Numbered from the stretch's first letter, positions 29,793-59,580 are shown. The stretch is DNA of 61,289 bases from a bacterium GBS-1 (GCA_001443005.1 LEKQ01000002.1:1-61289); one strand, 5' to 3'. The notes: a model not told the origin generated them from the letters alone. Program-made: numbers and translations.

Positions 29793-30764
29793 TTATCTCA
29801 TTCTCCATACCTTAAGGCTTCCGTCTTCGCTACCTGAAGCAAGGTATCTTCCGTCGGGGGAGAAGGCGAGGGCACTTACCTCATCCTTAAGGGCTTGAAA
29901 TCTTTTCACCATTCTTCTTTCCCTTATGCTCCAGAGGGTTATAACACCGTCTGGGTCTCCTGAGGCTATCAAGCTCCCATCAGGGTGCAGAGCGAGAGCC
30001 ACTATCGGCGCTTCGTTCTCATCCTCAAAGGAGACCACCCCGCCTTTGGTCACTAGATCCCATACCTTGATCTCTCCCATGTCATCACCAGATATGCAGT
30101 ATCTTCCGTCGGGGGAGAATATCATTGAGAGAATTATTCCCTTGTGCCTAAGTGAGATGGTCGCCTTGCTCTGTAAGCTCTTTATATCCCATATCTTTAC
30201 GGTTTTATCCATACCGCTTCCCGAAAGGGCATGTCTTTCATCTGGAAGAAAGGCTAACGCTGCTCCCAGGGCTCCCCCTCTATGCCCTTTGAGCTCTCCT
30301 ATCTTTCTTCCGCTATCAACGTCCCATAGCCTTACGGTCCCATCCTGATAGTCCATAGTCAAGGCAAGATCTCCACTCCTCGATATGGCAACGCAGGTGA
30401 CGGATCCTCCGTGCCCTCTTAGGGTCTTTAGCTCCTGTCCCGTTTTCATGTGCCATATCCTGGCGGTTCTATCGGTGCTTCCATATATCATGAACCTTCC
30501 ATCCCCTGAGAAGGATATATAGTTTATCCTGCTTCCTGAGGATATCCTGTATATCTCCTTTCCCTCTTCGACATCCCAAAACCTTATGTCTCCCGTTTTA
30601 TCTCCCGATACAGCATGCCTCCCTTGAGGGAAAAAGGCTATGGCGGTGATTCCTCCTTTGTGCCCCTTAAGGAGGATAAACTCCTCCTTCGCGCTAAGCT
30701 GATGGGAAAGAAACATAACCCCTATCGCGATAAGGATCAGTGTTAAAACCCTTTTATTCCTCAT
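29793..30764 (-). CDS. Exported seven-bladed WD40 protein
   Basis: A 323-residue protein: signal peptide (about 1-25), then seven well-kept WD40 repeats, each ending in a W-D/W-R type strand (FWDVEEGKEI, IWHMKTGQEL, LWDVDSGRKI, IWDIKSLQSK, VWDLVTKGG, LWSIRERRM, VWRMR). This is one complete propeller with no catalytic domain. Export of a canonical WD40 propeller is uncommon in bacteria. It lies about 40 bases upstream of the DUF1537 kinase on the same strand, with its own GAGGGG site; co-transcription is possible but a functional link is not evident. Confidence 0.85.
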   Translation of the reverse strand: MRNKRVLTLILIAIGVMFLSHQLSAKEEFILLKGHKGGITAIAFFPQGRHAVSGDKTGDIRFWDVEEGKEIYRISSGSRINYISFSGDGRFMIYGSTDRTARIWHMKTGQELKTLRGHGGSVTCVAISRSGDLALTMDYQDGTVRLWDVDSGRKIGELKGHRGGALGAALAFLPDERHALSGSGMDKTVKIWDIKSLQSKATISLRHKGIILSMIFSPDGRYCISGDDMGEIKVWDLVTKGGVVSFEDENEAPIVALALHPDGSLIASGDPDGVITLWSIRERRMVKRFQALKDEVSALAFSPDGRYLASGSEDGSLKVWRMR

Positions 30765-45304: not shown

Positions 45305-45406
45305 CGCTTCCACCCCCTTTGGACTGATTATAACACAAAGGTTCTGAAATCGTGTGCTATAATCTCGGTTTAAGGGATAATATTGTAGGCTGGAGGTGGT
45401 GTGAGG

Positions 45407-46411
45407 ATGAAGCTTGGCTTGATAGAGGAGAAGGGTACAGAGAGGCTAAAGAGGGGCTTCGCTAAGATGGTTAAGGGTGGGGTGATAATGGATGTTACCA
45501 ACGCTGAGCAGGCCAGGATAGCCGAGGAGGCGGGAGCTGTCGCGGTTATGGCCCTTGAGAGGGTCCCTGCTGATATAAGAAGCGCGGGCGGAGTTGCGAG
45601 GATGGCTGACCCCGAGAAGATAAGGGAGATAATGGATGCGGTAACTATCCCTGTGATGGCCAAGGCGAGGATAGGTCACTTCGCTGAGGCTCAGGCTTTA
45701 GAGGCCTTGGGGGTTGATATGATAGATGAGAGTGAGGTTCTAACTCCTGCAGACCCTTACTTTCACATAGATAAGAGGGCTTTTAAGGTTCCCTTCGTTT
45801 GCGGTGCGAGGAACCTGGGAGAGGCTGTTAGGAGGATATGGGAAGGTGCGGCTATGATAAGGACGAAAGGAGAGGCGGGAACGGGAAACATAGTTGAGGC
45901 GGTGAAGCACGTTCGGCTGATGAACGAGAACATACGCCTTATAAGGAGGATGACCGATGAACAGCTTTGGGGTGTGGCCAAAACCTTCGCTGAGCCTTAC
46001 TTGAGACTAGCTTTGGAAGTCAAGGAGATAAGCGGTTTGGATAAAAGGGTTCTTGATAACGAGCCCCTTTTCGGAGAGTATACCTACGAGGAGATAGTTG
46101 AGGGGCTTTACGGCATACTTCTTGAGATAAAGGAGCTTGGACGTCTTCCTGTGGTTAACTTCGCCGCGGGAGGAGTTGCCACGCCTGCCGATGCCGCCTT
46201 AATGATGCAGATGGGGGTGGATGGAGTATTTGTGGGAAGCGGGATATTCAAGAGCTCCAACCCTGAGAAGATGGCAAGGGCGATAGTTGATGCGGTTAAT
46301 CACTACGATGAGCCGGGTGCTTTAGCCTATTTAAGCAGGTCTTTAGGGGAGCCTATGAGAGGCCTGGAGATCGAAAGGTTAGCCTTGAGGATGGAGGAAA
46401 GGGGCATATGA
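45407..46411 (+). CDS. pdxS: Pyridoxal 5'-phosphate synthase subunit PdxS
   Basis: About 334 residues; it condenses ribose-5-phosphate, glyceraldehyde-3-phosphate and ammonia to [23 protein letters not shown] and [11 protein letters not shown] open the barrel, with the Schiff-base lysines in MAKARIGHF and [10 protein letters not shown]. Family members are usually about 295 residues. The extra length is one insertion of roughly 40 residues (around 200-245) between DEQLWGVAK and [10 protein letters not shown], like that known in archaeal PdxS. ATG 45407 is chosen over GTG 45401 by spacing to GGAGG. It is coupled to pdxT. Confidence 0.95.
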
Positions 46412-46995
46412 GGATAGGGGTTTTGGGCCTTCAGGGGGCAGTCAGTGAGCACATTGAGGCCCTTCAAAGGGCTATGCGAGAGCTTAACCTTGAGGGTGAG
46501 GTCTTCGCCTTAAAAAGAAGGGAGGATCTTGATGGTTTAAGCGGGCTCATTATCCCTGGTGGGGAGAGCACCACCATATTTAAGCTTCTTTCAAGGAATG
46601 GGCTTTTTGAGACTTTGAGGGAGCTCATACTCGATGGCTTGCCGGTTATGGGAACCTGTGCTGGGTTGATAATGCTGGCTAAGGAGATAGAGGGAGGCAT
46701 AGAAGGGCAGAGGAGCTTTCAGGTTTTGGACATCAGGGTTGGCAGGAACGCTTATGGTCGTCAGGTAGATAGCTTTGAAGCATGTGTTAAGCTCTCCTTT
46801 GACGAGAGGCCCTTTAAAGGGGTGTTCATAAGGGCTCCGAGGATATTGGGCCTTTGGGGGGAGGTTAAGCCGATCGCTTTCCTTGGGGATGAGGTGGTAG
46901 GCGTTGAGGCGGGAAAGGTTCTGGGTCTAACTTTTCATCCCGAGCTAACCGATGATTTGACTCTTCATAGATATTTCCTTAGAAGGTTGATATAA
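46408..46995 (+). CDS. pdxT: PLP synthase glutaminase subunit PdxT
   Basis: A 195-residue class I-type glutaminase supplying ammonia to Pdx[10 protein letters not shown] and PGGESTT are PdxT signatures. The catalytic triad is Cys in GTCAGLI and His-Glu in TFHPEL. It overlaps pdxS by four bases (ATGA). The pair makes PLP independently of DXP, which bears on the role of the PdxA-family gene at 27.5 kb. Confidence 0.95.
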
Positions 46996-47066: not shown

Positions 47067-48275
47067 TTGGCTGATTTTTTTCAGAACGGTGTGATAACGA
47101 CCCTTCATAGGCTGAGGCGCGATAACGAGCTTACCCTCGTTCAGGAACTTATGGAGTTTAAACCCTATAACTCCATAGCTTTAGTCTTACCTGCTTTGTA
47201 CTCGGAGTTTGAGGGACCGGCCATGTCTAAGATAATAAATGAGCTTTCCACCGCAAAGTATATAGACTTAGTAGTTCTTTCCCTCGATAGGGCGACTGAA
47301 GATGAATTTAGGCAGGTTAAGAAGCTCTTATCTACCCTCCCTCAAGAGGTGGTCATCATATGGAACGATGGCCCGAGGATGCAGGAGCTCTATAAAGCCC
47401 TCTGGGATGAGTTTGAGCCGTGGAGTAGAGGCAAGGGTATGGCCATATGGATGGGCTATGGATACGTTCTTGCCACGAAGAAATATCACGTAATAGCATC
47501 TCACGATTGCGATATACTGACCTATAAGGTAGATATGCTAACTCGGTTGGTCTACCCGATAGCTAATCCAAGGCTGAACTTCGATTTCGCTAAAGGTTAC
47601 TATGCCCGCTTTACCGATAAGCTTCACGGGAGAGTGATGAGGATATTTTTAACCCCTCTCTTGAGAGCTCTCATGACGATCGTTGGGAGAGTGGATTTCT
47701 TAGTTTACCTCGATAGCTTTAGGTATGCCTTGTCTGGTGAGTATGCCATGACCGCTGAGCTTGCCATGAGGCTTAGGATCCCGTCGGATTGGGGGCTTGA
47801 GATAGGCCTGCTTGCTGAGGTTTATAGGCTTTGCACCCTGGGAACCATATGTCAGGTGGATATAGCCGACGTCTTCGATCATAAGCACCAACCTTTAGAT
47901 CCAAGCAATCCCCAGGGGGGGCTTTTAAAGATGGCGGTCGATATAGCTAAGATGCTCTTTAGGAGCTTGGCGTCTAGGGGATTGGTCTTTTCCGATGGTT
48001 TCTTTAAGACCCTTAAGGCTACTTACTTCGCCGAGGCCATAAACATGATAAGGAGATATCATAACGATGCCATGATAAACTCTTTGGCCTATGATATGCA
48101 TGCGGAGGTCGTCATGGTTAATCACTTCTCTAAGGCTATAGATATAGCGGGTGAGGAGATCTTGAGGGATCCGATGTCCCTGCCTATAATACCTAGTTGG
48201 GTGAACGTCATTTCCGCTATGCCCGATTTCTTTGATAGACTTCTTGATGCCGTGGAGGAGGATAAGAAGGTCTAA
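47067..48275 (+). CDS. Glucosyl-3-phosphoglycerate synthase-like glycosyltransferase (GT81)
   Basis: A 402-residue GT-A enzyme resembling GpgS and mannosyl-3-phosphoglycerate-type synthases. SIALVLPALYSEFEGPAM, GKGMAIWMGYGY and SHDCDILTY (the DxD metal motif) match that family, and DWGLEIGLLAEVY is the acceptor-side segment. It would make the precursor of glucosylglycerate, a compatible solute used by thermophiles and nitrogen-limited bacteria. The phosphatase is not adjacent. TTG 47067 start, well placed after GGGAGGTGA. It is the first gene of the LPS run, joined to kdsD by TAATG overlap. Confidence 0.78.
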   Translation: MADFFQNGVITTLHRLRRDNELTLVQELMEFKPYNSIALVLPALYSEFEGPAMSKIINELSTAKYIDLVVLSLDRATEDEFRQVKKLLSTLPQEVVIIWNDGPRMQELYKALWDEFEPWSRGKGMAIWMGYGYVLATKKYHVIASHDCDILTYKVDMLTRLVYPIANPRLNFDFAKGYYARFTDKLHGRVMRIFLTPLLRALMTIVGRVDFLVYLDSFRYALSGEYAMTAELAMRLRIPSDWGLEIGLLAEVYRLCTLGTICQVDIADVFDHKHQPLDPSNPQGGLLKMAVDIAKMLFRSLASRGLVFSDGFFKTLKATYFAEAINMIRRYHNDAMINSLAYDMHAEVVMVNHFSKAIDIAGEEILRDPMSLPIIPSWVNVISAMPDFFDRLLDAVEEDKKV

Positions 48276-49246
48276 TGGATGAAAGAAAGCTGCTTGAGGA
48301 AGCTAAAAGGGTTCTTGAGGTTGAGGCTCAGGAGATATTGAGTCTAAAGGATAGGTTAGGTGATGAGATAGTTAGGGCTGCAAAGATAATACTCTCTTCT
48401 TCGGGGAGAACCGTGGTTATGGGGATGGGCAAGTCGGGGCTAATAGGTAGGAAGATATCCGCTACGTTGTCTTCGTTGGGTACGCCTTCCTTCTTCCTTC
48501 ACCCTGCTGAGGCGCTCCATGGAGACCTCGGGATGGTTAGAAAAGACGATGTAGTATTGATACTCTCCAATAGCGGTGAGACGAGAGAGGTCCTTTTAAC
48601 CCTTCCTTACTTCAAGAGGATCGGCTCAAAGATAATAGCCTTCACGGGCAAGCCTTCATCAACTTTGGGTAAGGAGGCTGACGTAGTCTTAAATACCTCA
48701 GTTGAGCGTGAGGCATGCCCTTTAGGGCTTGCTCCTACATCGAGCACGACGGTTATGCTTGCCTTGGGGGATGCTTTGGCGGTTGTTCTCGCGAGAATGA
48801 GGGGGTTAAGCAAGGAAGATTTTGCTCTCTTTCACCCTGATGGTAGCCTTGGGCGCAAGCTTCTTTTGAGGGTAGAGGATATAATGCATACCGGAAGGGA
48901 GATCCCCAGCGTCTTGGAGGAGACTATACTTAAGGATGCCCTCTTTGAGATGACGTCAAAGGGGTTTGGTACCATACTTGTGGAGAGAGGTGGTAGACTC
49001 GTTGGCATCTTGACCGATGGGGATTTAAGGAGGCACCTTGAGCGCTTCGGTTATGCCCTTCTTGATAAGAAGGTGGGGGAGGTCATGATAAGGAATCCTA
49101 AGAGGATATCACCTGTGAAGCTGGCTGCTGAGGCCTTGGCTTTAATGGAAAAGCATGAGATATCGGTTCTTCCCGTTGTGGATGAGGAGGATAGGATCTT
49201 GGGGATAGTTCACATTCATGACCTACTGAAGGCGGGGATAGCTTAA
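48275..49246 (+). CDS. kdsD: D-arabinose-5-phosphate isomerase (KdsD/KpsF)
   Basis: A 323-residue enzyme making arabinose-5-phosphate, the Kdo precursor. The SIS domain has MGMGKSGLIGRKISATLSS and SNSGETREVL, and HPAEALHGDLGM contains the conserved His. Two CBS domains follow from about residue 205 (ILTDGDLRRHLE in the first). It is immediately upstream of waaA, as expected for Kdo metabolism. KdsA, KdsB and KdsC are not in the window. Confidence 0.93.
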   Translation: MDERKLLEEAKRVLEVEAQEILSLKDRLGDEIVRAAKIILSSSGRTVVMGMGKSGLIGRKISATLSSLGTPSFFLHPAEALHGDLGMVRKDDVVLILSNSGETREVLLTLPYFKRIGSKIIAFTGKPSSTLGKEADVVLNTSVEREACPLGLAPTSSTTVMLALGDALAVVLARMRGLSKEDFALFHPDGSLGRKLLLRVEDIMHTGREIPSVLEETILKDALFEMTSKGFGTILVERGGRLVGILTDGDLRRHLERFGYALLDKKVGEVMIRNPKRISPVKLAAEALALMEKHEISVLPVVDEEDRILGIVHIHDLLKAGIA

Positions 49247-49248
49247 CG

Positions 49249-50466
49249 ATGCTGTTTTACTCCGTGCTCGGAAGCGCGCTTTTCTTCTCCCTCTATCCTT
49301 ACCTTCGGAGGCGCTACTCTGTGGGATTCGCTGAGAGGATGGGGAGGATATCTCTTCTTCCACCTCGAGGCAAGAGAGTTTGGATTCACGCCGTTTCAGT
49401 GGGAGAGGTTAAGGCTGCCTTTCCCCTTTTAAGGAGGATTAAGGAGGTTTGTCTCTCGGTCACGACGACCACAGCTTACTCCGTGGCCAAAGAGAGCGGC
49501 GTTGAGGATCTCTTCTTCTACCCTTGGGACCTTCCCTGGGTAGTAAATCGGGCGATCGACTGCATAAGCCCATCCCTCTATATAGTTATCGAAACGGAGC
49601 TTTGGCCCTTAATGATAACCACCCTCAAGAGAAGGGGAGTTAAGTTAGTATTAGCAAACGGGCGCATCTCCGATAGGTCCTATAGTGGTTATAGATTTTT
49701 CTCCCCCTTCTTTAAGAAGGTTTTATCCTCCTTTGACTTCATAGGGGCGATAAGTGAGAAGGATAAGGAGCGCTTCGTTAGGTTGGGTGCCAATCCTGAG
49801 AGGGTTAAGGTTATGGGAAACCTTAAGTATGACTCGGTCTTGGAGGGTATGGACCACTCTTGTGCTTCAAGGATGCGGGAGCTCCTCTCCCTCAAAGATG
49901 AGCCTCTCTGGGTTTGTGGTAGCACCCATGAGGGGGAGGAGGAGGTGATAGTGAGGGTCTATAAGAGGCTGCTTCGGGATTTCCCTGACCTTCGCTTAGC
50001 TTTAGTTCCCCGTCATCCCAATAGGGCCGGTGAGGTGGCTAAGGTTTTATCAGGGCATGGCTTGAGTTTCTCCTTAAGGAGCTTTAACCCGAAGGATAGG
50101 GTGGTTCTTTGGGACGTGATGGGTGAGCTTTTTAACCTTTACTCCGTCGCTACGGTGACCTTCTGCGGTGGTAGCCTCGTTCCTTTAGGTGGGCATAACC
50201 TGATAGAGCCTGCCTGCTGGGGTAAGCCTGTTTTTTACGGCCCTCATGTCGAGGACTTTATGGAGGAGAGCTCCCTCCTTGAGGGGTTGGGAGCTGGTTT
50301 CATGGTTAAGGATGAGGATGAGCTTTACGAGAAGGTCAGGCTTATATTAAGCGACAGCGCCCTGCGGGATAGGATCTATAAGAGCTTGAAGGATGCTTTT
50401 GGATCTTCCAGAGGCGTTGCCTCAAGATATTTAGAGATTTTAAATGATCTTATGGGGGGTGTTTGA
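49249..50466 (+). CDS. waaA: 3-deoxy-D-manno-octulosonic acid (Kdo) transferase
   Basis: A 405-residue GT30 enzyme that adds Kdo to lipid IVA at the inner membrane. An N-terminal anchor helix precedes IHAVSVGEVKAAFPLL, the ETELWP motif with the catalytic Glu nearby, LANGRISDRSY and MGNLKYDS. FCGGSLVPLGGHNLIEPA is the CMP-Kdo site. It confirms a lipopolysaccharide outer membrane. Two bases separate it from kdsD. Confidence 0.94.
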   Translation: MLFYSVLGSALFFSLYPYLRRRYSVGFAERMGRISLLPPRGKRVWIHAVSVGEVKAAFPLLRRIKEVCLSVTTTTAYSVAKESGVEDLFFYPWDLPWVVNRAIDCISPSLYIVIETELWPLMITTLKRRGVKLVLANGRISDRSYSGYRFFSPFFKKVLSSFDFIGAISEKDKERFVRLGANPERVKVMGNLKYDSVLEGMDHSCASRMRELLSLKDEPLWVCGSTHEGEEEVIVRVYKRLLRDFPDLRLALVPRHPNRAGEVAKVLSGHGLSFSLRSFNPKDRVVLWDVMGELFNLYSVATVTFCGGSLVPLGGHNLIEPACWGKPVFYGPHVEDFMEESSLLEGLGAGFMVKDEDELYEKVRLILSDSALRDRIYKSLKDAFGSSRGVASRYLEILNDLMGGV

Positions 50467-51637
50467 GATTAAGCCCTTTGTTTTCAAGACCTCAGGTAAG
50501 ATAGTTTTTGGGAGTGGGTCTTTGAAGAAGCTCTCCGAGGAACTTAAGGTCTTTCCTAAGGGGAAGGTTCTCATCGTTACCGATGAGAACCTCGCCAAAA
50601 GCGAGATCATCGAGAGCGTGATGAAGGAGGTTGAGAAATCTGGAAGGGAGCACGCTCTTTACGGTGAGGTCTCTCCTGAGCCCGCCGTTGAGCACGCCGA
50701 TAGAGCTGGGGAGATGGCTAAAGATTGCGCTCTAGTCATAGGTGTCGGTGGGGGTAGCTCTTTGGATGTTGCCAAGGGGGCGAGCGTCGTTGCCTCAAGC
50801 GGTGGGAAGGCTCGAGACTATATAGGTTTGGGTAAGGTTCCGAAGAAAGGCTTACCGATAGTTGCGATTCCTACTACTGCTGGGACCGGTAGCGAGGTTA
50901 CCCCTACCGCGGTCTTCATCTTCGATGAGAGAAAGAAGGGGGGAATAAACAGTCCTTACATAATACCCGACCTCGCGATATTGGATCCCATGCTCACGCT
51001 CTCCCTTCCACCATCCTTAACTGCTTCCACTGGGATGGATGCTTTGACCCATGCCCTTGAGTCTTACGTCGCTAAAGCTTCAACGCCGATGAGCGAGATA
51101 TTTTCCATTGAGGCCTTAAGGCTAATATCTCAAAACATAAGGATAGCTTACGCTGATCCTGATAACCTTGAGGCTCGGGAGGGCATGATGTTTGGAAGCC
51201 TTCTTGCGGGGATCGCTTTGGCTCACGCTGGCGTTGGGGCCTGTCACTCCATGTCCTATCCCTTGAGCTCCTTTTACGGTATAGGGCATGGTTTAGCTAA
51301 TGCGGTTTTGATCCCCCACGTTTCACTCTATAACGCCATAGCTGCTCCGAAGAAGTACGCCTTCGTTGCGTCCCTGTTGGGTGAGGATGTGGATGAGGTT
51401 TCTTCGAGGGAGGCGGCCTTCGCTATCTACGATGCTCTCTTGAAGCTGCTTTACGATCTCAACATTCCGGTTAACTTGGCTTCCCTTGGTGTCGCTGAGG
51501 AAGATCTTCCTCGCCTTGCTGCATCAGCACTGGAGGTAGACCGCCCGCTAACCAACAATCCTCGTAGGATAGGGTATGAGGAGATATACAACATTTACCA
51601 TAACGTTTATAACTTCGGTAGAGAGGAGGGGTACTGA
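50459..51637 (+). CDS. kdnB: Fe-dependent alcohol dehydrogenase, probable Kdo 8-oxidase (KdnB-like)
   Basis: About 392 residues. NAD-binding GVGGGSSLDVAKG, PTTAGTGSEVTPTAV and the iron ligands in GMDALTHALESY, HSMSYPLSSFYGIGHG are those of group III Fe-ADHs. The frame begins at ATG 50444 inside waaA; GTG 50459 gives MFEIKPFVFKTSGKIVFGSG, a better N-terminus. It is placed between waaA and the aminotransferase. In Shewanella, KdnB oxidises Kdo at C8 before KdnA transaminates it. The assignment rests on this gene order plus family; a general alcohol dehydrogenase is possible. Confidence 0.75.
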   Translation: MFEIKPFVFKTSGKIVFGSGSLKKLSEELKVFPKGKVLIVTDENLAKSEIIESVMKEVEKSGREHALYGEVSPEPAVEHADRAGEMAKDCALVIGVGGGSSLDVAKGASVVASSGGKARDYIGLGKVPKKGLPIVAIPTTAGTGSEVTPTAVFIFDERKKGGINSPYIIPDLAILDPMLTLSLPPSLTASTGMDALTHALESYVAKASTPMSEIFSIEALRLISQNIRIAYADPDNLEAREGMMFGSLLAGIALAHAGVGACHSMSYPLSSFYGIGHGLANAVLIPHVSLYNAIAAPKKYAFVASLLGEDVDEVSSREAAFAIYDALLKLLYDLNIPVNLASLGVAEEDLPRLAASALEVDRPLTNNPRRIGYEEIYNIYHNVYNFGREEGY

Positions 51638-52843
51638 ATGCCCGGTAGTGAGCTTTTCGGTAAGGAGGAGATAATAGAGGTAATAAAGGTTTTGGATAGG
51701 GGGATACTTCACAGGTACGCTGCTGAGCAGATGCTCGGTGTTTCAGCGGTCAGGGAGTTTGAGAAAAAGTTCGCGGAGTACATGGGTTCTAAGCATGCCC
51801 TCGGCGTTATGTCTGGGACGGCGGCGCTTAAGGTTGCCTTAGCTGCCTTGGGCATAGGCCCGGGCGATGAGGTTATAACGAGCTGTTTCACCTTTGTGGC
51901 TACGCCCGAGGCTATACTCGATGCCGGGGCGATACCTGTTTTCGTTAACATAGATGAGACCCTCAACCTTGACCCTGAGGACGTTGAGAGAAACATAACC
52001 GAGCGCACCAAGGCGGTGATAGCGGTTCACATGACCGGCGTTCAAGCCAAGATAGATAAGATAAAGGAGATAACCGATAAGCACGGCCTTTACTTGATAG
52101 AGGATAACGCTCAAGCCTGCGGTGCTACCTACAAGGGGAAGAAGCTCGGCACCTTCGGGCACTTCGGGACCTTCAGCTTCGACTTTTACAAGCCCATTAC
52201 CACCGGTGAGGGTGGAATGGTAATAACCGATGATAAGGATCTATTCTTTAAGGCCGATTGCTATCACGATCACGGGCACGTGCATGACATGAGCATTCCC
52301 AGGGCCCTTGAGAACCGCTACTGCATAGGCTTTAACTACAGAATGAACGAGCTTCAGGGAGCTTTGGGATTAGCTCAGATATCGAGGATGGATGAGGTTA
52401 TAAGGAGGCATAGGGAGAATAAGAGATATATAAAGGAGAGGATAATGGATATCAAAGGGTTATCCTTCAGAGAGATCCCCGATCCCGATGGAGAGATAGC
52501 GTCGACCTTAACCGTGTTTCTACCCTCTCCTAAGAAGGCCCTCGCTTTTAAAGAGGGGTTGTCGAAGAGGGGCATCAACGTGGCTCATCTTGGATCCAAT
52601 CGCTGGCACTTCGTTCCCAACTGGGAGCATATGAGGGAGTGGAAGAGCATGTTCGCTCACAGATGCCCCTTTGAGTGCAAGTTCAACGAGGCTTCCTTAA
52701 AGGATTACTCACCCGAAAGGTTCGCTCGCTCAACGGATATACTCGATAGAGCTTTAAGCTTGGATATAAGCGTTAAGATGGATAAGGAGAGATTGGATAA
52801 GATAGTTTCCTCCTTCAGGGAGGTAGCTAAGGAGGTCCTTTGA
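51638..52843 (+). CDS. kdnA: DegT-type PLP aminotransferase, probable 8-amino-Kdo synthase (KdnA-like)
   Basis: A 401-residue DegT/DnrJ/EryC1 aminotransferase. The PLP lysine is in SFDFYKPITTGEGG; LIEDNAQACGATYKG holds the PLP-binding Asp, and GFNYRMNELQGALGLAQ is family-typical. It starts MPGSELFGKEE, like KdnA proteins I recall. It abuts the Fe-ADH and the heptosyltransferase, so it probably converts 8-oxo-Kdo to Kdo8N. Other DegT enzymes make amino sugars for O-antigens, but those usually come with nucleotide-sugar dehydratases, none of which is here. Confidence 0.78.
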   Translation: MPGSELFGKEEIIEVIKVLDRGILHRYAAEQMLGVSAVREFEKKFAEYMGSKHALGVMSGTAALKVALAALGIGPGDEVITSCFTFVATPEAILDAGAIPVFVNIDETLNLDPEDVERNITERTKAVIAVHMTGVQAKIDKIKEITDKHGLYLIEDNAQACGATYKGKKLGTFGHFGTFSFDFYKPITTGEGGMVITDDKDLFFKADCYHDHGHVHDMSIPRALENRYCIGFNYRMNELQGALGLAQISRMDEVIRRHRENKRYIKERIMDIKGLSFREIPDPDGEIASTLTVFLPSPKKALAFKEGLSKRGINVAHLGSNRWHFVPNWEHMREWKSMFAHRCPFECKFNEASLKDYSPERFARSTDILDRALSLDISVKMDKERLDKIVSSFREVAKEVL

Positions 52844-53862
52844 GGGTTTTAGTTATTAAGATAGGCTCGATAGGGGATGTGGTTCACTCCCTTCCCACCC
52901 TCGAGGTCCTTTCACGCTTAAGCCCTAAGCCTGAGATTCACTGGGTGGTTGGGGAACTTGCTTTTCCCCTTCTTAACGGCGATCCGAGGATAGATAGGCT
53001 AATCCTTTTTAGGAAGGATAAGGTTAAAAGACACCTTAGATCGCTTAAGCTTGCTTCCTTCATCAGGGAGGTACGGGAGCTTTCGGTCTCTCTCCGGGAG
53101 GTGGAGTTTGAGCTATTGATCGACCTTCAGGGGGATTTAAAGAGCGCCCTTGTGTCTATGCTTTCGCGCTCGGAGGAGAGGATATCCTTCTGCGATGCCT
53201 CTGAGGGGAATCCGCTTTTTCTTAAGAAAGTCCCCTGTAGGAGGGAGAGCGTTCACGTGGTTGAAAGGTATCTTGATACGGTTAGGGTATCCTTCAGGGT
53301 AAAGGTGGATAAGGCTCCCTTTGCTAAGCCCTTCGTTTCGGAGGAGGCAAAAAATAGACTTAGCGAGCGCTTTGGATGGCTTTTAAAGGAAAGGATCGTT
53401 TCCTTAATCCCCTCCTCCACCTGGAGCTCGAGGATGTGGCTTGATGAGAGATGGGAGGGCCTATCTTTGAGGCTCGTTGATATGGGCTTTAAGCCCGTCA
53501 TAATAGGAGGAGCTGATGCTAAGCGTCTTAACCTTCCCGGAGCCGTTAACCTTGCTGGAGAGCTCTCCTTGGATGAAACCTGCGCCCTTTTGGAGAGGTG
53601 CTCTCTCTCGGTTGGAGTTGATACTGGTCCAACCCATTTGTCCGCCTCCCTTGGGATTCCTACGGTTGCCCTGTTTGGGCCAACTCCTTCTTGGAGGAAC
53701 TCTCCTTGGGGGCCCCGCGTCAAGGTCATTCATCATCTTGTAGATTGCGCTCCCTGTAGGAGGAGGAATTGTCCGAAAAAAGAGTGCATGAGATTGATAA
53801 GCGAGGAGGAAGTATTGAAGGTTATAGATGAGCTTTCTTCATTGGCTGTTCAAGAGGGTTAG
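52840..53862 (+). CDS. Heptosyltransferase-like glycosyltransferase family 9 (WaaC-type)
   Basis: A 340-residue GT9 enzyme. LVIKIGSIGDVVHSLPTL is the N-terminal signature of LPS heptosyltransferases. SLIPSSTWSSRMWLDERWE and VGVDTGPTHLSASLG with VALFGPTPSWRNSPWG form the sugar-nucleotide site. The position after Kdo processing suggests addition of the first core sugar to Kdo. Cysteines in VDCAPCRRRNCPKKECM near the end are common in this family. TTG 52840 overlaps the kdnA stop, after AAGGAGG. Confidence 0.88.
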   Translation: MRVLVIKIGSIGDVVHSLPTLEVLSRLSPKPEIHWVVGELAFPLLNGDPRIDRLILFRKDKVKRHLRSLKLASFIREVRELSVSLREVEFELLIDLQGDLKSALVSMLSRSEERISFCDASEGNPLFLKKVPCRRESVHVVERYLDTVRVSFRVKVDKAPFAKPFVSEEAKNRLSERFGWLLKERIVSLIPSSTWSSRMWLDERWEGLSLRLVDMGFKPVIIGGADAKRLNLPGAVNLAGELSLDETCALLERCSLSVGVDTGPTHLSASLGIPTVALFGPTPSWRNSPWGPRVKVIHHLVDCAPCRRRNCPKKECMRLISEEEVLKVIDELSSLAVQEG

Positions 53863-54691
53863 AGAGAGGGCTCTTAAGGCGAGCTTTAAGGAGAATCAGG
53901 AATATGGTAAGAGGCTTGGTAGGCTATTCTATTATCTTCCAATCTTTTTCGAGAGGAAGAGGATAGCTCTTGAGAACATATCCTTGGCCTTTGCTGGAGC
54001 CCTCAAGGATAAAAGGAGGGAGATACTAAAGGGTCTCTTTGAGCATCTTGGGATGAGCCTTCTTGAGGTCATAAGCCTTGAGAAGTTGGATGCCTCAGAT
54101 TTTCATCAAATTTTCCTATCACCTGAGGGATTGGAGAAACTAAAGGAGGGGGGGATAGTGGTCTCCGCTCACTTTGGCAACTGGGAGCTTTCCTTAGCTG
54201 CTCTTTCCTACGCGGGCTTTCCCGTAAACGTTATAGTTAGACCTCCGAGTGACCCTTTCTTCGCCGAGTATATAGACAAGATAAGAAGGAGGTTTGGTAC
54301 CAAGGTTATTCCGAAAGGAGCCTCTTTGAAGGAGGCCTTAAGATGCCTTGAAAGAAGAGAACTGCTCGTCGTAGTCGTTGATCAGGATGAAGGGAAGGAG
54401 GGCATATTCCTTCCCTTCATGGGAAGGATGGCTTCAACTCCTCGCGGAGCCTTTCTCCTCTCCCTGAAGTACGGTGTTCCTCTTATCCCATTGTTTTCTT
54501 GGCGTGAGGACGATGGTCATCACAAGGTGAAGGTTTTCCCACCCCTTTACCCTCAAGGCAAAAGTGAGCTCGATTTGGCAAGGATCGTGAACTTTCTGAT
54601 AGAGGAGATGGTTTGGACTTATCCCTCTCAGTGGCTCTGGATACACAGGCGCTGGAAGACCAAGCCTCCGGAAAGGGGAAAGCCATCTTGA
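53828..54691 (+). CDS. Lipid A late acyltransferase (HtrB/LpxL family)
   Basis: A 287-residue inner-membrane acyltransferase transferring a second fatty acid to Kdo-lipid A. SAHFGNWELSLAAL holds the HX4-(D/E) catalytic pair, and VVVVDQDEGKEGIFLPFMGR is the family continuation. PRGAFLLSLKYGVPLIPLF and YPSQWLWIHRRWKTKP are further conserved blocks. The N-terminus is short on hydrophobic anchor but has a basic amphipathic start. ATG 53828 overlaps the GT9 gene by 35 bases. Confidence 0.9.
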   Translation: MSFLHWLFKRVRERALKASFKENQEYGKRLGRLFYYLPIFFERKRIALENISLAFAGALKDKRREILKGLFEHLGMSLLEVISLEKLDASDFHQIFLSPEGLEKLKEGGIVVSAHFGNWELSLAALSYAGFPVNVIVRPPSDPFFAEYIDKIRRRFGTKVIPKGASLKEALRCLERRELLVVVVDQDEGKEGIFLPFMGRMASTPRGAFLLSLKYGVPLIPLFSWREDDGHHKVKVFPPLYPQGKSELDLARIVNFLIEEMVWTYPSQWLWIHRRWKTKPPERGKPS

Positions 54692-55770
54692 AGATACTGG
54701 TGGTGGAGTTAGCTCACATAGGTGATTTCGTGGCCTCAACCGGCGTTATCAGAGCGATCAAGGAGGCCTTTCGAGACTCGCTGCTTGTGGCTGTGGTTAC
54801 GAGGGATACCGAAGAGGTTGCTAGACTCTGTCCCTACGTTGATGAGGTTGAGGTTTATGACTATAAGGGCGAGCACAGGGGAGTAAAGGGCTGGCTTGAC
54901 ATATCAAGGAGGCTTAGGAGGTATGGTTTTGACATAGGGATAGCTACGAACTTCACCTTCAGGGAGGGTCTCTTACTTTATCTCGCTGGCTGTAAGGAGC
55001 GGGTTGGTTCACCCGGCAGGGGGAGAGGGATATTCTTGACCAAAAGGAGCGAGTATATCTCGCGAGGTGCCATGTTCGGTTTAGATCGTGAACTTGCCTT
55101 CCGTTCCATAACCGAGATACGCCTTAAGGTCCTTGAACCGTTGGGAATAAAGAGGGTAAGCTATCCTCGCTTGGAGGTACCCGAAGATCTTAAGGCGAAG
55201 GTTTACGATACCTTTCTTAGGGGTCTGGCGAGACCTATCTTCTCCTTTGGAACATCGGGTGACGGAACTTACAAACGCTGGGGGGTAAAGAGGTGGAAGA
55301 TATTGGGTGAGAGGTTGGTTTCCTCCTACGGTGGAAGCATAGTGCTAATAGGGGGTAAGGAAGAGAGAGAGCATAATGAAGCCATCTTTAAGCTTCTTCC
55401 CTTCTCCAGGGATACGACGGGAAAAACCACGGTCTCAGATTTCATCGCCATTCTCTCGCTTGTTGACCTTCACATAGGGGTTGATTCCGGTCCGCTTCAC
55501 GCTGCCTCCGCCCTCGGCAAAAGATGTGTGGGGCTCTTTGGGCCAGCGAACCCCTTCTGCTGGTCTCCCTTGTCTGAGAATGGGCTTGTAAGGTCCATAT
55601 ATAAGTTCTTACCCTGTTCCCCTTGCTACTATAAAAATCGCCCCTGTCTTTCCATCAGACCCTACGGGGTTCGCCCTTGCATGTCTTCCATATCCGTTGA
55701 CGATGTCTTAAGGGAGGTAAGTGAGCATATGAGCGCTATTAGCAGCGATGAGATGATGAGGAAGGAGTGA
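54688..55770 (+). CDS. Heptosyltransferase-like glycosyltransferase family 9 (WaaF-type)
   Basis: About 360 residues from TTG 54688, which overlaps the acyltransferase stop and has GGAAAGGGG upstream; the frame extends upstream inside that gene to ATG 54613. KILVVELAHIGDFVASTGVI and DLHIGVDSGPLHAASALG with VGLFGPANPFCWSPL mark GT9. A Cys-rich end (PCSPCYYKNRPCLS) is also seen in its paralogue at 52.8 kb. It is the last gene of the LPS run. Its 3' end overlaps the convergent flippase-like gene by 109 bases. Confidence 0.87.
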   Translation: MKILVVELAHIGDFVASTGVIRAIKEAFRDSLLVAVVTRDTEEVARLCPYVDEVEVYDYKGEHRGVKGWLDISRRLRRYGFDIGIATNFTFREGLLLYLAGCKERVGSPGRGRGIFLTKRSEYISRGAMFGLDRELAFRSITEIRLKVLEPLGIKRVSYPRLEVPEDLKAKVYDTFLRGLARPIFSFGTSGDGTYKRWGVKRWKILGERLVSSYGGSIVLIGGKEEREHNEAIFKLLPFSRDTTGKTTVSDFIAILSLVDLHIGVDSGPLHAASALGKRCVGLFGPANPFCWSPLSENGLVRSIYKFLPCSPCYYKNRPCLSIRPYGVRPCMSSISVDDVLREVSEHMSAISSDEMMRKE

Positions 55771-56552
55771 GCGAAGAAGGCTTCCTCTAATTTCGTTCCC
55801 GAGGCAACTATCCAGCCCATCTCGTAGTTTCCAAGCCCTAAGAAGCCCGATATCGGTATGATAAAGGAGCACTCCGCTCCTATCGCTCCCTTAAAGGCCG
55901 TGAGGAAGTCCACTCTACCTGACGACGTCAGTAAAGATGCTATTCCTATGACCTTTATCCCCCATATGAGGTAGGTTAAGCCCAAGCTCTTAAGCATCTC
56001 CTCCCTTTGGAATCTCTGCCACCCCCTTGAGTAGACCTCCCTGAGCTTCGGTACCGTTAAAAGGAGCTTTAAGCTTCTTTCGATGGTCTTGAAGCCGAAA
56101 AAGGTGAAGGCGAACTCGAAGGATATAAGGGCTAATCCCCAAAGGGGTTTAAAGGAGAGTAGAAGTAAGCTCATCAAGCATAGAGCATCTATTCCCCTAA
56201 CGAGGAGGAGGAGGCTACCGCTTAAGATGAAGCTCATTCCCTTCCTCTTAAGAAGCAAAGGGAAGGCAATCTCACCGAGCTTCGCCGGGAGGGTGTTAGC
56301 TAAGGCGGTGTGAAAGGCGACTATTCTTAAAAGTTCCCATCTTTCAAGTTCCCTCGGAAGTAGAACCCTCCATCTTTCGGCCTTAAGTACATATGTCGCG
56401 AAGTATAGGAGGAAAGCTGGAATTACCCCCCTTGCACCAACCGATCTCCAAAGCATCAGCGCTTCCTTAAGCGAGCTACTCTCAAGCAGGAGGTAAAGGG
56501 TAGCACCAGCTATTAAAGCCCCTAATGCTATGTATAGCGTCTTTCCTCGCAA
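55662..56552 (-). CDS. Flippase-like membrane protein (LPG synthase TM/UPF0104 family)
   Basis: A 296-residue protein with about eight hydrophobic helices. ERWRVLLP, FHTALANTLPAKLGEIAFPLL and the later GFLGLGNYEMGWIVASG are signatures of the AglD/lysylphosphatidylglycerol-synthase membrane domain. TTG 56552 lies after AAGGAGATAG within the end of the upstream GT2. Members help transfer or flip lipid-linked sugars. It is the last gene of the PAP2-ArnT-ArnC-like operon. The C-terminal 36 codons lie antisense to the heptosyltransferase gene. Confidence 0.75.
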   Translation of the reverse strand: MRGKTLYIALGALIAGATLYLLLESSSLKEALMLWRSVGARGVIPAFLLYFATYVLKAERWRVLLPRELERWELLRIVAFHTALANTLPAKLGEIAFPLLLKRKGMSFILSGSLLLLVRGIDALCLMSLLLLSFKPLWGLALISFEFAFTFFGFKTIERSLKLLLTVPKLREVYSRGWQRFQREEMLKSLGLTYLIWGIKVIGIASLLTSSGRVDFLTAFKGAIGAECSFIIPISGFLGLGNYEMGWIVASGTKLEEAFFAHSFLIISSLLIALICSLTSLKTSSTDMEDMQGRTP

Positions 56553-57487
56553 CTTACTATCTCCTTAATCAGATAGGGCCTTCGACCCTGAGATTCGTAA
56601 TAGGTTCTCATTATCATTTCTCCCAAGATCCCGGTTGATATTAGCTGAATGCCGGCTATCATTAAGAGTATCGCTAAAAGGAGCATCGGTCTCTTTGAGA
56701 GCTCAATCCCCTCGAATATCTTAAGCAGGGAAAGATATAGAGCTATGGCGAACCCGGCGAGGAAGCTTATTAAACCCAACCCTCCCAAAAGGTGTAAAGG
56801 CCTGGTCCTATATCTTAAGAGAAACTTAACGAGAAGCAGGTCTAAGAGTACCTTGGGTATCCTTTCGAGGCCATACTTCGACTTTCCTCTCTTCCTCGGG
56901 TGATGCCTCACCTCTACCTCAGTCACCTTGGCTCCGTTCATAGATGCTAAAGCTGGTATGAACCTGTGAAGCTCTCCATAAAGCTTGAGGTCCTCGAGAG
57001 CCTCTCTCCTATAGGCTTTAAGGGTGCAGCCGTAATCGTGCAGCTTAACCCCCGTTATCTTAGATATGATCCAGTTCGCTATCATTGAGGGAAGCTTTCT
57101 CTTCCAGAAAGGGTCCTTTCTTTCTCTTCTCCAGCCGCTTACAACATCATATCCTTCTTCTATCTTGCTTAGCAGTTTGGGTATATCCTCCGGGTCGTTT
57201 TGAAGATCTCCATCCATGGTTACGATTATGTCTCCTTCAGCTACTTCAAAGCCTGCCGAGAGGGCGAAGGTCTGCCCATAGTTTCTCCTTAGGATAACCC
57301 CCTTAACACTGCTATCGCTTAGCGCTATCTCCCTTATTATCTCTGTGCTTCCATCCTTGCTGCCGTCATCCACGAGGATGATCTCGTAATTCAATCCCTC
57401 TAAGGATCTTTTTAGCCTCTCGTAAAGCTCCCTTATGTTGTCTTTCTCGTTATATATTGGTATTACTATTGATATGAGCTCGCTCAT
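56528..57487 (-). CDS. Polyprenyl-phosphate glycosyltransferase (ArnC/DPM1-like GT2)
   Basis: A 319-residue GT2 enzyme. SIVIPIYNEKDNIRELYERL, ILVDDGSKDGSTEII and the metal site TMDGDLQNDPEDIP are as in ArnC and dolichyl-phosphate mannose synthases. RGKSKYGLERIPKVLLDLL is the interfacial helix, followed by two C-terminal membrane helices (about 232-255 and 265-290). It would make an undecaprenyl-phosphate sugar for the ArnT-like transferase it is coupled to (ATGA overlap). Sugar unknown. Confidence 0.88.
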   Translation of the reverse strand: MSELISIVIPIYNEKDNIRELYERLKRSLEGLNYEIILVDDGSKDGSTEIIREIALSDSSVKGVILRRNYGQTFALSAGFEVAEGDIIVTMDGDLQNDPEDIPKLLSKIEEGYDVVSGWRRERKDPFWKRKLPSMIANWIISKITGVKLHDYGCTLKAYRREALEDLKLYGELHRFIPALASMNGAKVTEVEVRHHPRKRGKSKYGLERIPKVLLDLLLVKFLLRYRTRPLHLLGGLGLISFLAGFAIALYLSLLKIFEGIELSKRPMLLLAILLMIAGIQLISTGILGEMIMRTYYESQGRRPYLIKEIVSCEERRYT

Positions 57488-58863
57488 TCTCTCTCAAATA
57501 TCCTTAGCTTCACCCACTTTCCATTGTAGAGTGAGAAGCCTTCCCTCTCAAAGATCTTCTTATACCCCTTTATGCTCTCCTCATAGCTTAAGATCCACTT
57601 CCCACCATCCTTTATCGGGATATCCTTCCCGTAGTAGAAGACGGTTGAGGGGGCTAGGGCATCCTTAGTTGCGTGAAGCTCAGGGCAGTTTTTCCTGGCG
57701 AAGAGCCCCGCTTGGTAGTGGGGGTAGAACTCCTTGAAGGGGTTTAAGATCAGTATCGCCAAAGATAGGGCGAATATCGCTGAAAGCGATATTCTTAAAT
57801 CCTTTATGTAGAAGCTCAACCCCCAGACGGCTAATATGCTAAGCCCACTTAAGAAGAGCTTCACTTTGAGCTCTCCAGGCAGGTTGCCCTTGAGGATGTA
57901 TAGGATGCCGAAGGGTATTAAGGCAAGCATGCCCCCTGATAGCCAGTCCCATAGGGACTCTCTTTCTCTCTCCATCATCATGGCGAGCGCTGGAAACAGG
58001 GGAAGTATGTAGTGGGGGAGCTTCGTTTGGGAGAAGGTGAACAGTAAGAAGACCGTCAGGAACCATATGTAAAATAGCGATTTATCCCTGCTCCAAGAGC
58101 TCAGGCTCTTGATAAACCTTCCCAAGTTGGGGATTACTCCCAAAAGGAGAATGGGTATGTAGTAATATAGGGGGCCTGTGTGCCCCTCAAGCCCGCTTTT
58201 GAGCCTCTCTATGTTCTCGTGAAGGAGGAAGTGCCTTACCATATCCTCCATGCCCTTAAGGTAGAGTATCCCAAACCAGCTTCCTCCCACAAGGGCTGAG
58301 ATGACACCAGAGAGTATTACCCCCTTTATCAGCCTTCTCTCATATATCAAGGAGTAGATAAGGAAGCTCACCCCCCAGATCAAAACCACGACTGGTCCCT
58401 TAGTGAGCATGCCCAGGCCCAAGGATACCCCTGCCCAAAGCCATCTCTCCCTCTGCCCGAGGAAAAAGGCAAGGGTGAGGAAGAAGACCATGCTTGAGTC
58501 CATCCTTCCGACCGAGGAAACCAGGATGGGCATAAGGCAAGAAAGGTATATTAAATGAGATTCAACCTTCCTTCTCTCATACCATATGTATAGCACGTAG
58601 GCAGTTAGGAGGGTGAAGATCACAGACCATATCCTCGCTCCCCATTCGCTTGGGCCAAAGAGCTTAAAGGTGACTCCCGTCAACCAGAACCAGAGGGGTG
58701 GCTTGGTGGGGAAAGGTTCCCCGTTGAAATTCGGTACAAGCCAATCACCGCTTTTTGCCATTCTCAGCGAGACGCTCGAGTACCAGGCCTCATCCATGTC
58801 AAGTATGGGATAGATTGAGATCGTTACTAATAACGCTATCGTTATCAAAGCTATCTTTCCCAT
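57484..58863 (-). CDS. ArnT/PMT-like glycosyltransferase (GT-C fold)
   Basis: A 459-residue membrane protein with about ten helices. The first periplasmic loop LDMDEAWYSSVSLRMAKSGD carries the catalytic Asp/Glu, and NGEPFPTKPPLWFWLTG is the ArnT signature. LGMLTKGPVV and SQTKLPHYILPLFPALA follow in the expected places. It moves a sugar from an undecaprenyl carrier onto an acceptor, lipid A in ArnT. Coupled to the ArnC-like gene; no aminoarabinose genes (ArnA, ArnB, ArnD) are here, so the donor may be a simple hexose. Confidence 0.88.
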   Translation of the reverse strand: MGKIALITIALLVTISIYPILDMDEAWYSSVSLRMAKSGDWLVPNFNGEPFPTKPPLWFWLTGVTFKLFGPSEWGARIWSVIFTLLTAYVLYIWYERRKVESHLIYLSCLMPILVSSVGRMDSSMVFFLTLAFFLGQRERWLWAGVSLGLGMLTKGPVVVLIWGVSFLIYSLIYERRLIKGVILSGVISALVGGSWFGILYLKGMEDMVRHFLLHENIERLKSGLEGHTGPLYYYIPILLLGVIPNLGRFIKSLSSWSRDKSLFYIWFLTVFLLFTFSQTKLPHYILPLFPALAMMMERERESLWDWLSGGMLALIPFGILYILKGNLPGELKVKLFLSGLSILAVWGLSFYIKDLRISLSAIFALSLAILILNPFKEFYPHYQAGLFARKNCPELHATKDALAPSTVFYYGKDIPIKDGGKWILSYEESIKGYKKIFEREGFSLYNGKWVKLRIFERE

Positions 58864-59510
58864 CCCTCTTCCTTCACTCCTTCCTTAGCTATCATCATGC
58901 CTAAGTACAGGGAAAATATAACATCTGAAGGCCAGTGGGACAAGCTCGCCATTCTGCTTAAGGCTGTCAGGATGGGAGGTATAAGAAAGGCAAATTTCCA
59001 CTTTCTCCTGATATTTAAATATAGTGAGAAGAAGGAACCTCCCGCTAGCGCTACATGTCCCGAGGGAAAGGACCAGTAATCGGAATCGCTTATCTTATCG
59101 TATCTCAGCCAATCGAACCTATCGCTCACCCTCGGCCTCCCCCTAGCGCTTCCAACCTTTATGATATCCGCTACCGCTCCGGATAACAACCCAGATATGA
59201 GTGCCTTCTTAAGAAGCTTTCCAGCTCCATTAAAACCTAAGGCATAGCTTGAGTAGCTCAGCGTCGTCAAGATGGGGATAAGAACCGTTCCATTTCCTAT
59301 CCTTTCTCCGATTTCCGTGAGAGGGGGATATCGATCTACCCTTAGATTCCCATCTATAAGGTATATAGAGAGGATCGCTATAACAACTAGCTTAAGCCAT
59401 CCTTTTTTATCTCTCAATAATGCTATTATTCTCCTCTTGACCCTCTTCCTCTCTTGGATTATAAGTATTAATGACAGTAGATAAAGGAGGGTTAAATATA
59501 GCTTCTCCAT
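58851..59510 (-). CDS. PAP2-superfamily membrane phosphatase (LpxE/PgpB-like)
   Basis: About 219 residues, six helices. The three phosphatase motifs are SARGRPRV (with a preceding Lys), the FPSGHVALAGGS active-site His and SRMASLSHWPSDV. It may remove a lipid A phosphate or recycle undecaprenyl pyrophosphate. ATG 59510 has no ribosome-binding site, but an extended -10 TGATATAAT ends 7 bases upstream, so the mRNA may be leaderless. A TTG frame extends to 59558 with no site either. It is the first gene of the operon, overlapping the ArnT-like gene by 13 bases. Confidence 0.83.
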   Translation of the reverse strand: MEKLYLTLLYLLSLILIIQERKRVKRRIIALLRDKKGWLKLVVIAILSIYLIDGNLRVDRYPPLTEIGERIGNGTVLIPILTTLSYSSYALGFNGAGKLLKKALISGLLSGAVADIIKVGSARGRPRVSDRFDWLRYDKISDSDYWSFPSGHVALAGGSFFSLYLNIRRKWKFAFLIPPILTALSRMASLSHWPSDVIFSLYLGMMIAKEGVKEEGWER

Positions 59511-59517
59511 GTTTAAG

Positions 59518-59526
59518 ATTATATCA
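59518..59526 (-). promoter_or_regulatory. Extended -10 promoter of the PAP2 operon (possibly leaderless)
   Basis: On the minus strand TGATATAAT (59526-59518) fits TGn-TATAAT, with no good -35. Only 7 bases separate it from ATG 59510, so transcription would begin at or near the start codon. Confidence 0.4.
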
Positions 59527-59551
59527 GAAAAACTTTTTAACAGATTACCTC

Positions 59552-59580
59552 TTGTCAATTTGGGGTTCTTTAATTATAAT
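59552..59580 (+). promoter_or_regulatory. Predicted promoter of the SLH porin gene
   Basis: TTGTCA (59552-59557) and TATAAT (59575-59580) are 17 bases apart. It predicts a leader of about 315 bases before the porin ATG. Confidence 0.55.

Follow-up and report, generated by a model that had tools for sequence, protein, structure and literature searches.

What does a DegT-family aminotransferase do in an operon for the inner core of lipopolysaccharide (LPS)? The question is raised by a window of DNA (here, the whole analyzed stretch of 61,289 nucleotides) from a Synergistota genome (1.81 Mb, 98.5% complete), in which a DegT gene and an iron-type alcohol dehydrogenase (ADH) gene lie between the Kdo transferase gene waaA and a heptosyltransferase-like gene. 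Kdo is usually regarded as a near-universal LPS linker, and its 8-amino form, Kdo8N (8-amino-3,8-dideoxy-D-manno-octulosonate), as a Shewanella oddity. An earlier, sequence-only reading of the window proposed that the two genes are the KdnB/KdnA pair that makes Kdo8N in Shewanella, and that such a module is little described outside Proteobacteria. In line with the latter point, our literature search found papers that report Kdo8N from Shewanella and treat it as characteristic of that genus (PMC6357163, PMC3210612, PMC4052302), in one wording as “a hallmark of Shewanella species” (PMC6357163). The search turned up no report of Kdo8N in Synergistota, and neither enzyme assays nor LPS chemistry for the organisms treated here. 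The Kdo 8-oxidase of Shewanella is listed in one review as KdnB (cd08184; PMC5125639).

The gene pair lies in a closely packed LPS operon

The genes of the LPS run are listed in Table 1, and their family assignments agreed across the scans of the run. kdsD and waaA are separated by a 2-nt gap, waaA and the ADH gene overlap by 23 nt, the ADH stop codon and the DegT start codon abut as TGAATG, and overlaps of 4 nt and 35 nt join the DegT gene to the first GT9 gene and that gene to the acyltransferase gene. The gene order and junctions thus bear out the earlier description of a contiguous, nearly all overlapping run, except that the acyltransferase gene ends at 54691, past the end of 53862 that had been given for the run. 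The second GT9 gene probably starts later than the TTG at 54613. As the sequence-only reading had also held, family scans found no nucleotide-sugar synthesis genes among the scanned neighbors of the ADH-kdnA pair.

Table 1 Predicted genes of the LPS operon, with positions counted from the first nucleotide of the window
Gene and assignment	Position	Strand	Basis
kdsD, arabinose-5-phosphate isomerase, first step of Kdo synthesis	48275..49246	+	TIGR00393 342 bits (above cut-off); closest KdsD model 363 bits
waaA, Kdo transferase to lipid IV(A); predicted Kdo8N transfer here	49249..50466	+	WaaA models up to 327 bits; adjoins ADH-kdnA in most Synergistota families
“Type A” iron-type (group III) ADH, predicted NAD-dependent Kdo 8-dehydrogenase, in the place of KdnB	50444..51637	+	PF00465/PF25137; best PDB match 8zrl, 260 bits
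kdnA, DegT-family PLP aminotransferase, predicted 8-oxo-Kdo transaminase making Kdo8N	51638..52843	+	Best PDB match 5k8b, 310 bits; tree; signature residues
GT9 heptosyltransferase-like gene, core extension	52840..53862	+	Heptosyltransferase I model 144 bits (below cut-off of 185)
LpxL/HtrB-type late lipid A acyltransferase	53828..54691	+	TIGR02207 114 bits (below its cut-off)
Second GT9 heptosyltransferase-like gene	54613..55770	+	Heptosyltransferase II model 96 bits (below its cut-off), match from residue 27

Several other features of the window were recorded. Just upstream of the operon, at 45401-46995, lie pdxS and pdxT, which encode PLP synthase and keep this proximity in related genomes. 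A gene at 47067-48275 resembles methanogen-type glucosyl-3-phosphoglycerate synthase (GpgS; 343 bits against a cut-off of 700) and overlaps kdsD by 1 nt; it is present in one relative (L037) and was not seen in another (L036). Its presence is suggestive of either a compatible solute or a glycosylated lipid. On the other strand, 3' of the operon, the only transferases are ArnC-like and ArnT-like, and these are grouped at 55662-59558 (minus strand) with a flippase-like LPG_synthase_TM protein and a PAP2 phosphatase, possibly as a separate lipid A decoration. Elsewhere, at 29793-30764 on the minus strand, a compact WD40-repeat protein scores highly against eukaryote-type propeller families.

The aminotransferase groups with KdnA

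When compared with all PDB sequences, the window DegT protein matched Shewanella KdnA (5k8b) best, in a full-length alignment covering residues 1-383. The next-best match, perosamine synthase, reached 189 bits over the catalytic core only, and ArnB scored 151 bits. In a tree of 108 proteins built by a quick method, the window protein fell inside the KdnA family (SH-aLRT 91), apart from ArnB and WecE of E. coli and from its DegT paralogue in the same genome. Five residues (E91, D182, H212, H216, and N321 in the window numbering) are invariant in all 105 KdnA sequences, are mostly replaced in other DegT enzymes, and are all present in the window protein. R222 likewise matches all 105 KdnA sequences, and R33 of Shewanella KdnA is a leucine in the window protein. 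KdnA requires PLP, and the column of the PLP lysine, K186, is invariant. PDB match, full-length alignment, tree, and signature residues all agree that, as judged from sequence, the window DegT enzyme is a member of the KdnA family, as had been proposed; a placement with O-antigen amino-sugar enzymes, the outcome named beforehand as speaking against the proposal, was not seen. The five signature residues may be what reads 8-oxo-Kdo.

DegT enzymes mostly act on nucleotide sugars, and ArnC-like and ArnT-like transferases are encoded at 56528-58863 on the other strand. Both facts would fit an alternative in which the product of the pair is another amino sugar (a 4-amino sugar like Ara4N or perosamine, for instance) destined for the outer core or for lipid A decoration, and Kdo stays unmodified. 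We regard this as very unlikely, given the margin of the KdnA score over those of ArnB and perosamine synthase, the presence of all five KdnA residues, and the scanned neighborhood free of sugar-nucleotide genes; it would also leave a linked KdsB clade, described below, unexplained. ArnB, WecE, and perosamine synthase have the fold family and PLP lysine in common with the window KdnA, but they are without most of the KdnA-specific residues and stand elsewhere in the tree. An assignment of the window enzyme to any of these three types was rejected on scores, tree, residues, and gene context.

The dehydrogenase belongs to a different subgroup from KdnB

The dehydrogenase half of the proposed pair did not hold up as KdnB. 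The window ADH exceeds the cut-offs of both PF00465 and PF25137, and its best PDB matches are an NAD-dependent methanol dehydrogenase (8zrl), 1,3-propanediol dehydrogenase, and lactaldehyde reductase (260-225 bits), whereas Shewanella KdnB (5k8c) appears far down the list at 103 bits. It keeps the metal ligands D199, H203, H268, and H282, the NAD-site residue D47, and the GGGS motif. A careful tree unites KdnB with its relatives in a single clade (100/100) from which the window ADH is excluded, and forcing the window ADH into that clade cost 23.6 lnL, with a p-AU of 0.03 that is soft because the group was chosen post hoc. By scores and tree, the enzyme is a group III iron-type ADH nearest to ordinary NAD-type enzymes, and its identity as KdnB (cd08184) is ruled out. 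The sequence-only reading had named a tree placing the dehydrogenase with butanol-type dehydrogenases as an outcome that would speak against its proposal. Since the window ADH does not group with KdnB, this outcome formally applies. It removes the KdnB identity but does not sink the Kdo8N module, because that expectation assumed that only KdnB can oxidize Kdo.

The kdnA-linked ADHs of this kind, which we call type A, have conserved residues of their own (T155, G166, N169, L259, G279, and P368) that set them apart from paralogues. Two residues, N169 and D86, are common to type-A ADHs and KdnB and absent from the paralogues; no alignment column was common to paralogues and KdnB and missing from type A. 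A quick tree recovered type A as one clade (SH-aLRT 89), the careful tree split it, and an AU test did not reject a single clade (p 0.25). Compared with the group III enzymes FucO (lactaldehyde reductase), 1,3-propanediol dehydrogenase, and methanol dehydrogenase, the kdnA-linked ADHs are alike in metal ligands, NAD-site motif, and overall sequence, and differ in their own conserved residues and in their location in LPS operons.

Type-A dehydrogenases take the place of KdnB across Synergistota

The survey covered 188 Synergistota genomes, with kdnA counted on full-length-type matches. The set includes the complete genomes of two type strains, Thermanaerovibrio velox (G175; PMC3910556) and Thermanaerovibrio acidaminovorans (G173), the latter strictly anaerobic (PMC3035242). 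Both Thermanaerovibrio strains have the operon with a type-A ADH. kdnA is present in 93 of the 188 genomes. A type-A ADH gene lies 0-39 nt upstream of kdnA in 38 of these, and a KdnB-type enzyme, often adjoining kdnA, is found in 48 (141 bits for a Synergistota KdnB-type partner against 5k8c). No kdnA genome has a type-A partner together with KdnB, and the seven with neither include several incomplete assemblies. The order waaA-ADH-kdnA or kdsD-waaA-ADH-kdnA was found again in most Synergistota families. This recurrence and the close spacing of ADH and kdnA in 38 genomes argue that the arrangement is not due to chance. Across the phylum, then, type-A ADH stands in for KdnB as kdnA's partner. 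In the collection, scanned with a masked three-sequence alignment as the query, the type-A ADH-kdnA pair also occurs in three metagenome-assembled genomes (MAGs) labeled Proteobacteria (L112), Deltaproteobacteria (L117), and Desulfobacterales (L135).

These distributions bear on whether the ADH takes part at all. Group III is a broad family with many substrates, and the window genome carries four further Fe-ADH genes, so that Kdo8N might be made with another enzyme oxidizing Kdo and the type-A ADH a mere bystander. Such a role seems highly improbable for a gene that lies so close to kdnA in 38 genomes and is never the partner of kdnA where KdnB occurs; its product also has residues that the paralogues lack, two of them common to KdnB, and the same pairing recurs in MAGs of other phyla.

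Other arrangements were seen outside Synergistota. Many Bacteroidota (among L081-L107, which are mostly Bacteroidota, and L293 and L295) carry kdnA without an adjoining dehydrogenase, and in at least two of these genomes a KdnB-like gene lies beside kdsB instead. Kdo8N may be far more widespread than thought. In two Desulfobulbaceae (L123 and L128), the gene directly before kdnA resembles pantothenate synthetase, and neither a dehydrogenase nor a kdsB gene was detected in the vicinity.

A distinct KdsB clade accompanies kdnA

Nearly all Synergistota kdnA clusters, with either type of partner, include a CMP-Kdo synthetase gene whose product belongs to a distinct KdsB clade (tree support 99), here called KdsB*. 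Standard KdsB genes, found in kdsA-kdsD-waaA-kdsB clusters, fall outside this clade, and several genomes carry both clusters. In six families (f3-f6, f11, and f12) and part of a seventh (f10), kdsB*-kdsA-kdsD-waaA-ADH-kdnA form one operon. The window genome has a single KdsB above the family cut-off, and it lies inside the KdsB* clade; its gene is on a different contig (C11:22563-23243) from kdnA (C2), and neither kdsA nor kdsB* is linked to kdnA in this genome. We predict that the window KdsB* is a CMP-Kdo8N synthetase.

The clades differ at the residue of the QGDEP motif that corresponds to position 101 of the E. coli enzyme. This residue is Asp in all 60 KdsB* sequences, Glu in all 23 standard Synergistota KdsB sequences, and Gln in all five Shewanella-type kdnA-linked KdsB sequences. 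Two of the MAGs with a type-A ADH (L112 and L117) have the Gln101 type, as in Shewanella, and a Sulfurivirga genome has two copies, one of Glu type and one of Gln type, the latter linked to kdnA. Glu101 is retained in Bacteroidota with kdnA, including those with a KdnB-like gene beside kdsB. A genome of the Shewanella order (G248; L338 and L351) has a Shewanella-type KdsB with Gln101 and a second, divergent KdsB-like gene, and no kdnA was found in it. Owing to the Bacteroidota and this exception, residue 101 was rejected as a universal marker of Kdo8N: KdsB specificity is not readable from this residue alone, and we take it as a supporting clue rather than a rule.

Of the proposed KdnB/KdnA module, the Kdo8N product is well supported, as is KdnA; the pairing with KdnB is not, because a non-KdnB ADH replaces KdnB as the partner of kdnA and the KdsB clade accompanies both versions.

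A predicted pathway to Kdo8N

Taken together, these observations make it very likely that the type-A ADH and KdnA make Kdo8N for the LPS inner core. The best reading is that Kdo is converted to Kdo8N before activation and transfer, with an NAD-dependent dehydrogenase replacing KdnB in an anaerobic phylum. KdsD, KdsA, and KdsC would make free Kdo, and all three genes are present in the window genome, as is lpxC. To judge from its family, the ADH would then use NAD+ to turn the C8 hydroxyl group of Kdo into an aldehyde, and KdnA would transaminate this aldehyde to Kdo8N, probably with glutamate as the donor; this transamination would pull the unfavorable C8 oxidation forward. KdsB*, encoded elsewhere in the genome and its only KdsB, would activate Kdo8N as the CMP sugar, and the operon neighbor WaaA would transfer it to lipid IV(A).

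The order of these steps could be imagined differently. In the window both genes are placed after waaA, and they close the long operons, as might be expected if their substrate were CMP-Kdo or the Kdo of assembled LPS, and not free Kdo that has yet to be activated. The sequence of genes does not dictate that of reactions, however, and the existence of a separate KdsB clade is best understood if Kdo8N itself is what is activated. Free Kdo is also reportedly the substrate of the Shewanella pathway (Gattis et al. 2013), and we find action after activation scarcely credible. CMP-Kdo, moreover, is short-lived, with a half-life of 34 min at 25°C (PMC3149649).

The deep families retain KdsB* as their only KdsB, which suggests that they may have no ordinary Kdo in their LPS at all. 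This is our boldest inference, and it depends on KdsB* being specific. We lean, with some reserve, toward a wider picture in which a large part of Synergistota makes Kdo8N, the deep families, including that of the window, use it instead of Kdo throughout, C8 oxidation falls to a second NAD-linked ADH that was separately recruited, and activation falls to a second CMP-sugar synthetase that was separately specialized, giving an O2-independent version of a pathway that has been reported from Shewanella alone.

Comparison with known systems

Gattis et al. 2013 and Zachman-Brockmeyer 2016 are the primary papers on Kdo8N. Shewanella KdnB was reportedly first described as O2- and metal-dependent and later crystallized with tightly bound NAD, and its cofactor has been disputed. 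If our reading is right, the type-A ADH is a natural replacement enzyme for this very step, and an amino-bearing inner-core sugar is common across an entire anaerobic phylum, type strains of which can be obtained. The two distinct KdsB lineages paired with KdnA could then serve to pinpoint which residues determine the choice of Kdo or Kdo8N.

The KdnB-type clusters of other Synergistota, Desulfobacterota, and Bacteroidota all have KdnA in common with the window operon, and those of Synergistota also have KdsB*. They differ in their KdnB-type partner and, in Synergistota, usually stand apart from kdsA-kdsD-waaA. The Shewanella oneidensis pathway (KdnA, KdnB, and KdsB; 5k8b and 5k8c) is matched by the window system in a KdnA that is homologous over its full length with the same invariant residues, in a kdnA partner from the same dehydrogenase superfamily, and, in most relatives of the window, in a dedicated, linked KdsB. 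Unlike in S. oneidensis, the dehydrogenase comes from another subgroup, KdsB* forms its own lineage and has Asp at position 101 where the Shewanella type has Gln, and many relatives of the window have one operon that also holds kdsA, kdsD, and waaA. Relative to the Shewanella pathway, then, the comparison points to a pathway of the same kind in which two parts have changed: the dehydrogenase, which is a different one, and the CMP-sugar synthetase, which comes from another lineage.
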